Shown here: positions 13,574 to 16,994 of the stretch, piece after piece
How the letters are laid out: each line of letters opens with the position of its first letter
Position numbering within the stretch: position 1 is the first letter of the stretch
Origin: Geothrix sp. 21YS21S-2
GTDB lineage: Bacteria; Acidobacteriota; Holophagae; Holophagales; Holophagaceae
DNA: 64,000 nt
Reading direction: 5' to 3'
Assembly (NCBI RefSeq): GCF_030846775.1
Contig: NZ_CP132910.1
Location: 4,219,001 to 4,283,000, forward strand
Program-made: the position numbers and the translations under genes
The notes under the pieces: generated by a model
The model's database searches: none
The model's input: the letters and a program-made list of their open reading frames with translations, nothing else
What the model was told of the DNA's origin: nothing

Positions 13574-14728
13574 CTACCCGAAGAAGGTCCGCATGCGCTC
13601 CAGCGCCTTGTCCAGCGCCTCCAGGGACGCGGCGATGGAGATGCGAAGGTACCCGGGCGCGCCGAAGGCGGTGCCGGGCAGCACCTTAACCCCGGCCTCG
13701 TCCCGGAGGCGCGCCGTGAGTTCCGGGTCCGAGGCGACGCCGTGGGCCTCCATCCATCCGGCCACGTGGGGGAAGAGGTAGATCGCCCCCTCGGGGCGGC
13801 CGCAGCGGATGCCCCGGATGGCGTTCAGGCCCTCCTGGAGCCGGTCCCGGCGGACCCGGAGGCCCTCGGCCATCTCCCGCTCGAAGGCGCCGTCCAGGCC
13901 CAGCGCGGCGATGCCGGCGTGCTGGCTGATCATGCTGGGGTGGGTGACGCTGGTGGAGCCCAGGCTGGTCATGGCGCGGATGAGGCCCAGGGGGCCGGCG
14001 GCGGCGCCCAGGCGGTAGCCGGTCATGGCGAAGCGCTTGGAGAAGCTCTCCACCAGGAGGGTGCGGTCGGCCAGGTCGGGGCAGGTGCGCAGGAAGGGGA
14101 GCTCGGGGCCGTCCAGGGTGAGGGTGCCGTACACCTGGTCCAGCACCAGCCAGAGGTCGCGCTCCAGGATGACGTCGGCCAGGTCGTGGAGGCGCGGGAG
14201 GTCCCACACCCTCCCGGTGGGGTTGGAGGGCTGGTTGAGGATGACGGCGCGGGTGCGCGGGCCCAGCGCCCGGTCCAGGGCGCCCTCCGCGGGCAGGAGG
14301 TCCGGGCCCGGCGGCACGATGACCGGAGTGCCTCCGGCCCAGGCCACCTGGTCCTTGAAGGTGGGCCAGTAGGGGGCGAAGATCAGCACCTCGTCCCCGG
14401 GCTCCAGGACGCACCGGAGGGCGTCGAGGATGGCGGGCTTGCCGCCGGCGGTGACGAGGAGGTTGTCGGCGGTGCGGGGGACCCCGTCCCGCCGGGTCAG
14501 GTCGGCGGCCAGGAGCTCGCGCAGGGCGGGCAGGCCCTGGGCGGGGCCGTAGCGGGTTCGGCCCTCCAGGGCGGCCCGGGCCGCGGCTTCGCGCACGGCC
14601 ACGGGGGGCAGGCCCTCGGGCTCGCCCACCGTGAGGTCCACGGGGTCCGGGTGGAGGCAGGGCGCCGAGGCCCCGGCCATGGTGGGCGAGAGGCCGGCGC
14701 TGCCGGCGCGGGTGTTGAGGGTCACCAT
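13574..14728 (-). CDS. class I/II PLP-dependent aminotransferase, probably aromatic
   Basis: A 384-residue fold-type I aminotransferase. VGEPEGLPP near the N-terminus, [20 protein letters not shown] (PLP-ring Asp and Tyr) and the Schiff-base lysine K231 in [15 protein letters not shown] are all intact, with the late YLRISIA arginine for the substrate carboxylate. The ATG at 14728 lies inside the end of the CM-PDT-DAHPS gene (7-bp overlap), so it is the last gene of an aromatic amino acid operon. Transamination of phenylpyruvate, hydroxyphenylpyruvate or prephenate is the likely role, by context. Confidence 0.88.
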
Positions 14729-16749
14729 TTCTTCCCCTGGGAATCCACGATGGGTCGCAGACCAGCATACAGCGCCGCCATGTCCTCGCGGGTGAGGGCC
14801 TGGTCCTTGTCGCACAGGGCCTCGGAGGGGTTTGGGTGGGCCTCGACGATGAGGCCGTCGGCGCCGGCGGCCGCGGCCGCCAGGGCCAGGGGCACCACCA
14901 GCTCGCGCACGCCCGCGGCGTGGGACGGGTCCACGATGACGGGCAGGTGGGTGAGACGCTTCAGGACGGGCACCGCGGCGATGTCCAGGGTGGCCCGGGT
15001 GGCGGTCTCGAAGGTGCGGATGCCCCGCTCGCAGAGCACCACCCGCTGGTTGCCGCCGTGGAGGATGTACTCGGCGGCCAGCAGCAGCTCCTTCACCGTG
15101 GCGCTCATGCCGCGCTTGAGGAGGATGGGCTTGTCCAGCTTGCCCAGCTCCTTGAGCAGGGCGAAGTTGTGCATGTTGCGGGCGCCCACCTGGAGCATGT
15201 CGGCCTTGCTCGAGACCGCGAAGATGTCCTCGATGGTGAGGATCTCGGTGACGATGGGCATCTCGCACTCGCGGCCGGCCTCCTCCAGGTAGCGCAGGCC
15301 CTCGAGGCCCAGGCCCTGGAACGCGTAGGGCGACGTGCGGGGCTTGAAGGCGCCGCCCCGGAGGATGGTCGCGCCCGCGGCGCGCACCATGCGGGCGCCG
15401 TCCATGATCTGCTGGCGGCTCTCCACGGCGCAGGGGCCGGACATGAGCACGAAGTGGCCCTCGCCGATGGTGACGTTGCCGATCTTGAAGGTGGTGCGCA
15501 CGGGGCCGGCGGCGGGGGCGGGCCCGGGGACGGGGCGCGCCTCGCAGGAGAGCACCGGCTCGGGCGCGGCCGTGGCGGCCTCGGGGGCCAGGTGGGCCTC
15601 CTGGCCGCGGGTGCGCCGGGGGTAGGTGCCCAGGACCCGCAGGTGGTTGCAGGAGCCCCGCAGCTCCTTCAGGGCCCTGCCCAGCGCCGGGGCGTCCTGG
15701 TGCCCTTCCACGTCCACGAAGAAGAGGTATTCCCAGGGGGTGTCCGGCAGGGGCCGGCTCTCGATGCGGGTGAGGTTGGCCCCGGCCTCGGCGAAGATGC
15801 CCAGCGCCTTGGAGAGGGTGCCCTCGTGGTGGTTCAGGCGGAAGACGAGGGACGTCTTGCTGGGCACGCGCGGGTCGGGCGGCTCGGGGGCCCGGGAAAG
15901 GAGCAGGAACCGGGTCTCGTTGTGCTCCTGGTCGGCGATGCCGGTGGCCAGGACGTCCAGGCCCCGGGCCCGCGCCGCCTCCTCCGAGCAGATGGCCCCC
16001 ACGTCCCGGGCGCTCTCCTCCAGGAGCGACTCGGCGGCTCCGGCGGTGTCGAACCAGGGCTGGCGGGTGACGTCGTCCATGGCCCGCAGGAAGCCCTCGC
16101 ACTGGGTGAGGGCGGCGGGATGGCTGCGCACCACGCGGATCTCCTCCAGGGTGACGCCGGGCTTGGCGGCCAGCACGTGGTCCACGTCCCACACCTCCTC
16201 GTCCACGATGTGGAGGAGGTTGTCGATGAGGAGCCGGTTCACGTCCGCGATGGCCCCGCCGATGCTGTTCTCGATGGGCAGGAAGCCGTAGTCGATGGCC
16301 CCGCACTGCAGGGCCTCCACCACGTCCAGGAACATGGGGTGGCCCACGAGCTCGCTGCCCTGGGTGCTGCGGGTGGCCATGAGGTGGGCCGCGGCCGCCG
16401 AGCTGTACGAGCCCAGCACGCCCTGGTAGCCCACCTTCACCTTGCGGGCGCGGGAGACGCTGCCCTCGACCACGGGCTCCTGGAGCCGGCGGGAGTGGCT
16501 GAGGATCTCCTTGAGGATCCTGCGGGCGAAGGGGGCCGAGAGGCCCAGGTCCTCGGCGTCCCTGATCCAGGCGGAGAGCACGTCCCGTTCGCGGTCGTTG
16601 TCCATGACGGGCTTCTCGCCGTCGGCCGCCTTGGCGCCGGCCACCAGGCGCACCGCGTCGAAGCGGCGCGCCAGGAGGCGGATGAGTTCGCGGTCGGTCT
16701 CGTCGATCTCCCTGCGGGCGGCGCCGAGGGTTTCAAGCTTGGGGTCCAT
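14722..16749 (-). CDS. trifunctional chorismate mutase / prephenate dehydratase / DAHP synthase
   Basis: A 675-residue fusion. Residues 1-92 are an AroQ chorismate mutase (helices with [18 protein letters not shown] and DNDRERDVL). Residues 103-285 are prephenate dehydratase, ending with the catalytic NETRFLLLS. Residues 298-375 are an ACT domain with the phenylalanine-binding ESRP motif. A Pro/Ala linker leads to residues 420-675, a class I-beta DAHP synthase ([34 protein letters not shown]). The protein therefore joins the first shikimate step to the final phenylalanine branch. GGAG precedes the ATG. A leader peptide and attenuator lie upstream; an aminotransferase overlaps the end. Confidence 0.93.
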
Positions 16750-16785: not shown

Positions 16786-16820
16786 AAAAAACCCGTCCGC
16801 CAGGTCATGGGGGACGGGTT
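16786..16820 (-). terminator. attenuator-like intrinsic terminator in the aromatic operon leader
   Basis: On the minus strand AACCCGTCC (from 16820) pairs with GGACGGGTT (to 16790) around a 13-base loop and is followed by a T run. It sits between the leader peptide and the trifunctional gene, about 40 bp before that ATG, so it would stop transcription unless antiterminated. Confidence 0.8.
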
Positions 16821-16832
16821 CGAAGGGGTGCG

Positions 16833-16856
16833 GGAGCTGCTAGCTTCTAGGGCTCC
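16833..16856 (-). promoter_or_regulatory. leader hairpin overlapping the leader stop codon
   Basis: On the minus strand GGAGC and CTAG pair with CTAG and GCTCC around AAG (16833-16856). It spans the leader stop codon, between the Tyr-codon hairpin and the terminator, where a competing attenuation hairpin would be expected. Pairing is visible; role is inferred. Confidence 0.45.
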
Positions 16857-16941
16857 ATGCCTCGACCAGTCCTCCGCCGCCGCCGTAATAATTACGGCGG
16901 GCGGCGGGGGTAAAGGTGAAGGTCGCGGAATGGGCGGTCAT
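16840..16941 (-). CDS. putative aromatic amino acid leader peptide (attenuator)
   Basis: A 33-residue frame starting at ATG 16941 and ending TAG at 16840-16842. It reads MTAHSATFTFTP, then RRNYYGGGGG, then EAWSPRS, so it has two Phe, two adjacent Tyr and one Trp. AGGA lies a few bases before the ATG. The Tyr codons lie in a strong dyad (CCGCCGTAAT, one base, ATTACGGCGG; 16880-16900). A second hairpin and a U-tract terminator follow before the trifunctional gene. This is the layout of a pheL-type attenuator. Translation is not shown by sequence alone. Confidence 0.65.
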   Translation of the reverse strand: MTAHSATFTFTPAARRNYYGGGGGLVEAWSPRS

Positions 16942-16994
16942 GTTCCTGCTCTAAGGGATGGATTGGATCATGGATCGGGCGCGCTGCCAAGCCT

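Follow-up and report, generated by a model that had tools for sequence, protein, structure and literature searches.

The DNA upstream of a fused gene of aromatic amino acid synthesis in Geothrix sp. 21YS21S-2 very probably encodes a ribosome-mediated transcription attenuator that senses phenylalanine and tyrosine. The element lies in the window, which is the whole stretch of 64,000 nucleotides that was analysed. By sequence comparison, the assignment is based on a short leader ORF, its enrichment in Phe and Tyr codons, the covariation of the hairpin formed by regions 1 and 2 (1:2), an intrinsic terminator, an antiterminator that overlaps it and the position of this antiterminator relative to the codons. 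It is also likely that the genus runs a set of leader-peptide attenuators, responding to Phe or Tyr (CM-PDT-DAHP synthase), to Trp (trpE and a DAHP synthase) and, twice in series, to His (hisG). If so, both the entry into the aromatic pathway and its branching would be set by the speed of ribosomes on separate leaders. A textbook mechanism would thereby be extended, on comparative evidence, to the Acidobacteriota, with a testable assignment of signals: Phe and Tyr at the window leader, Trp and His at the others.

Structure of the leader and the presumably regulated genes

The first-pass annotation of this DNA had proposed a 33-codon frame, two hairpins and a terminator, all of which are present on the minus strand. 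Its dyad over the Tyr codons (16880-16900) exists, but is merely the tip of a longer hairpin, 16922-16860. Its second hairpin, over the stop codon, exists as well, but is the apical part of the antiterminator and not an independent element. The antiterminator itself, formed by region 2 with region 3, was missing from that account and is added here. The parts of the leader and the genes behind it are the following.

16962-16990, minus strand: probable promoter, with -35 TTGGCA (16990-16985), a 17-nt spacer and -10 TCCAAT (16967-16962)
16840-16941, minus strand: leader ORF of 33 codons, MTAHSATFTFTPAARRNYYGGGGGLVEAWSPRS and then the stop codon, with a Shine-Dalgarno-like AGGA upstream
16860-16922, minus strand: region 1:2 (protector) hairpin spanning the Phe and Tyr codons, from the fold and compensatory changes
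16860-16872, minus strand: region 2, GGACUGGUCGAGG, with region 1 or region 3 as alternative partner, from folding and pairing
16833-16856, minus strand: apical hairpin spanning the stop codon and flanked by regions 2 and 3, from the fold
16812-16826, minus strand: region 3, CCUUCGAACCCGUCC, the 5' arm of the terminator and the partner of region 2 in the antiterminator
16786-16821, minus strand: region 3:4 intrinsic terminator, with the stem at 16821-16789 and T6 at 16791-16786
14722-16749, minus strand: fused gene of 675 aa, a single chain that combines chorismate mutase, prephenate dehydratase, ACT and DAHP synthase, from Pfam and NCBIfam
13574-14728, minus strand: class I/II aminotransferase, second gene of the presumed operon, its start codon overlapping the end of the fused gene

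The promoter-like site matches at 9 of 12 positions (P ~0.01 by shuffling) and sits in the 53-nt gap between an alpha-glucosidase (GH31) gene of the same strand and the leader, so the transcript is expected to start near 16955. Sites with 9-10 of 12 matches occur in seven of the nine genomes that carry the fused gene; those of G051 and G063 are no better than chance. The control region of the leader ORF consists of Phe7, Phe9, Tyr17 and Tyr18. The hairpin over the stop codon, which by eye has a counterpart in all nine leaders, falls within the antiterminator loop and makes it shorter. The terminator with its six T ends 36 nt upstream of the start of the fused gene. The whole leader folds with -77.2 kcal/mol, against -56.6 kcal/mol for dinucleotide shuffles (z = -5.1), and none of 200 shuffles was as good.

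The genes downstream of the leader (CM-PDT-ACT-DAHP synthase, with the Pfam domains CM_2, PDT, ACT and DAHP_synth_1, and the aminotransferase) belong to the cognate pathway, which is also the target pathway of E. coli pheA. The leader accompanies a fused gene from whose products Phe as well as Tyr are made.

Proposed mechanism

Transcription would start just upstream of the short leader ORF, which would then be translated. When its Phe and Tyr codons are read without delay, the ribosome would cover region 2, leaving region 3 to pair with region 4; the 3:4 terminator would form and transcription would end short of the fused gene. A shortage of charged tRNA-Phe or tRNA-Tyr would make the ribosome stall at these codons, within the 5' arm of the 1:2 hairpin, so that region 2 would be released and would pair with region 3; the terminator would be blocked, and the CM-PDT-DAHP synthase and aminotransferase genes would be transcribed in response to Phe and Tyr.

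Conservation in the Holophagaceae

A survey of 77 Holophagaceae genomes found the fusion in nine, the window's included, which belong to three genera, and the eight loci besides the window's were inspected. Every one of the nine fused genes has the leader ORF, the hairpins and the terminator upstream of it. The peptides share the motif F-x-F-T-x-A-x-R-(R)-(Y/F)-(Y/F); examples from the relatives are MFTATFAFTRAFRRFTRRGRELG, MTTTTFSFTYAYRYFIGGGRVRVGGALN and MHSCLITFAFTYAYRRYFGGGGGLVEGMGMLES. A covariance model trained on the nine leaders found a tenth, outside the training set, in the MAG G070 with E = 2.6e-17; it encodes the peptide MPTFTFTYAYAYRWFTGGGGVMGGALS and is followed by a terminator of the same type. 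The leader is conserved and not a product of chance, although the examples are not independent because the leaders and their gene neighbours all come from one bacterial family. The first-pass annotation had the idea that an aromatic amino acid operon is attenuated through a leader peptide, and proposed to check it by the conservation of codons and hairpins in relatives; it is supported by the Phe/Tyr motif and hairpins at these nine loci and in the tenth copy.

The GH31 gene, on the same strand as the leader and separated from it by ~53 nt, raises the question whether the hairpin is simply the terminator of that gene and the small ORF an accident. GH31 is the upstream neighbour in only three of the nine genomes, whereas leader and terminator stand before the fused gene in all of them; the element therefore goes with the downstream gene. 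The Phe/Tyr motif of the ORF is kept and the hairpin covaries, so that a GH31 terminator is a most improbable explanation of the conserved leader.

The tenth copy (L123, G070:C267:3292-3423, minus strand) represents a second Phe/Tyr leader of the same family. It lies 3' of an aroE-like gene and 5' of a 65-aa ORF that has no Pfam or NCBIfam family and no match in other genomes of the Holophagaceae. In the MAG G063 (L004, upstream of 2132) the terminator stem is kept without a proper U tract, and the terminator may be weakened or termination may occur in another mode. The covariance model yielded no convincing further copy from the class or phylum, its matches there being plain terminators with weak E-values, and a match in the window's own genome (G000:C1:3558838) was rejected as a chance terminator. 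No aromatic leader of this type was found before the unfused DAHP synthases of the family's other genera, and no leader was seen at the third DAHP synthase of the genus. Most of the genus's matches to prephenate dehydrogenase (tyrA) are weak and partial.

Predicted alternative pairings of region 2

The 1:2 hairpin is supported by compensatory changes: across the ten sequences, 10 of its 21 pairs are changed on both sides. There are 17 doubly changed cells, compared with 6.0 in shuffled data, and none of 500 shuffles reaches 17, a figure that is not to be read as a probability because the sequences are related. Slid structures score far below the hairpin in the same count.

Region 2 follows directly 3' of the control codons, still within the ORF, and is complementary also to the 5' arm of the terminator. 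The pairing in the window is GGAC-GGU-CGA-GG with CC-UCG-ACC-GUCC, and in G070 an uninterrupted helix of ~11 bp is possible. Of random genomic 30-mers, 93-99.8% are poorer partners for region 3 than region 2 is. When region 2 is compared with its own dinucleotide shuffles, P ranges from 0.035 to 0.35 and is singly not significant in eight of the nine leaders, because region 2 is G-rich and region 3 is C-rich. In one genus (g4), region 2 encodes RGRE rather than GGGGG, and its RNA is still G-rich and pairs in another register, which points to selection on the RNA rather than on the peptide. Folding predicts in all ten leaders that the antiterminator is exclusive with the 3:4 terminator and is freed by stalling on the control codons, with the switch close behind them. 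The antiterminator is still favoured in several leaders when the RNA preceding the terminator is folded with no ribosome, which suggests that termination in the absence of translation may be incomplete.

Predicted position of the switch

The position of the switch was modelled by folding, codon by codon, the RNA that is free 3' of the ribosome, up to the 3' arm of the terminator. Free RNA was taken to begin 13 nt downstream of the A-site codon's first base, a footprint assumed from E. coli ribosomes. With the A site no further along than the last control Tyr or Phe codon, the terminator's 5' arm generally has an upstream partner, in most cases with P of 0.6-0.96. Four leaders have 0.50-0.62 at the very last control codon, and G051 has ~0.4 at its first codons. 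Past the last conserved Tyr or Phe, upstream pairing drops towards 0-0.4 within ~1-8 codons. In the window it is 0.78 at Tyr17 and Tyr18, 0.66 at the next codon, then 0.32, and <=0.10 from there on, with 0.01 at the Trp codon. The window and its nearest relatives show a sharp switch, while the transition is more gradual in G066, G070, G063 and the tenth copy. In the model, the antiterminator gives way to the terminator at the last conserved Tyr/Phe codon or within the next few codons.

A strong and conserved structure followed by a terminator might also be expected of a metabolite riboswitch, a T-box or a protein-binding attenuator with an incidental ORF. An Rfam search gave no family at threshold, T-box and the known amino acid leaders included. 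No T-box or amino acid leader family appeared at E up to 1, and the best matches, Burkholderia and Pseudomonas sRNA models, were at chance level. Only translation accounts for the conserved Phe/Tyr codons, the open frame and the place of the switch, which makes an RNA element of this other kind very unlikely.

Amino acids probably sensed by the leader

In each of the ten leaders, 4-6 of the 14-18 codons that precede the switch encode Phe or Tyr, against a background of 5.8%, and the enrichment per leader has P between 0.018 and 7.6e-5. After the switch there is at most one aromatic codon per leader.

The first-pass annotation had suggested a single leader that samples Phe, Tyr and Trp together, and codons for all three are found in the window leader. 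There, however, a ribosome would reach the Trp codon (16857-16855) only after the stretch in which stalling would free the antiterminator. A Trp codon is lacking in most relatives and is absent before the switch in nine of the ten leaders, the tenth copy (G070) having the only one in a control region, and trpE is preceded by a leader of its own. That part of the proposal was therefore abandoned: joint sensing of all three amino acids is highly doubtful, and as far as the sequence tells there is no Trp sensing at the window leader.

Attenuation by Phe alone, with the Tyr codons as tolerated neighbours, would be a sub-version of the Phe/Tyr attenuator, and its likelihood overlaps with that of the latter. 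It is suggested by the two genomes of g4, whose control regions contain five codons for Phe and none for Tyr. The other eight leaders have two or three Tyr codons each, usually as the last control positions, and the Phe-only version is accordingly unlikely, with the combined Phe/Tyr signal preferred.

Comparison with known attenuators

The general scheme of ribosome-mediated attenuation has been described (Elf and Ehrenberg 2005, PMC1183508), and the anatomy of the window element shows its defining features. Like E. coli pheL-pheA, the element has Phe codons in a short leader ORF, 2:3 and 3:4 hairpins that are predicted to exclude each other, and a terminator ahead of a CM-PDT gene. Unlike pheL-pheA, the window leader mixes Tyr with Phe codons, its target enzyme includes a DAHP synthase, its region 2 is inside the ORF and its host belongs to the Acidobacteriota. 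The order of leader, protector, antiterminator and terminator is that of trpL and the actinobacterial trp leaders, whereas the control codons differ and Trp would be handled here by the separate trpE leader. Because no Rfam leader family matches, the likeness to known leaders is one of mechanism, with common descent not shown.

Candidate attenuators were reportedly described also in some groups outside the Proteobacteria, by Vitreschak in 2004 and by Lopatovskaya in 2010, so the window element is not presented as the first outside the Proteobacteria. The hisS/hisZ leader peptides of Bacilli (Naville and Gautheret 2010, PMC2965389) were likewise found by comparison and are an instance of leader-peptide attenuation outside the Proteobacteria and Actinobacteria, but differ from the window leader in gene, amino acid and phylum. 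Almost no predicted attenuator of the Acidobacteria had an assigned function in that study. The first-pass annotation knew of no description from this phylum, in agreement with our search of the open-access literature, which covers older papers incompletely and in which no account of leader-peptide attenuation in Acidobacteria was found.

Leaders of other biosynthetic genes

In five genomes of the genus, trpE follows closely on a Trp-rich leader (WNWxWW; for example STWNWCWWPQGSGVCVGSLRT) and its terminator. In the window's genome this leader is located outside the window, at G000:C1 ~237.3-237.5 kb (L134), and the other four are L132, L133, L135 and L136. A DAHP synthase gene of its own follows trpE in the window's genome. 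Folding places a roughly comparable switch behind the Trp codons, although in G070 it is less sharp.

The gene hisG is preceded in five genomes by two His-rich leaders in tandem, each followed by a terminator. They are found at L147 1221-1500, reverse strand (hisG of G000), and also at L145, L146, L148 and L149; the peptides are, for example, VTFIVIHHPHFHAFTGGAGACGTGA and then MNLHLHHHAHPPLPG. These tandem His leaders, which would put two attenuators in front of a single operon, may be a more unusual finding than the Phe/Tyr leader. Since the Trp and His leaders are of the same design as the Phe/Tyr leader, leader-peptide attenuation is probably widely used in the genus, and the separate leaders suggest that the signals are divided among them.

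In another acidobacterial genome a small Cys-rich ORF, MAISTQLKQRMVCQGDCCALQPCCGCAFNR, is followed by a terminator (L159, G195:C187:8247-8328, minus strand) and is possibly a cysteine leader. Small Trp-rich ORFs also lie upstream of trpE in other acidobacterial families (L179, L185, L187 and L188; for example MDVQPAGANNYFWCWYRQGGWSAF and MRNHTSERGITKTTPRGWWWRTAHAEGGSPRS), which suggests that Trp attenuation may be wider in the phylum.
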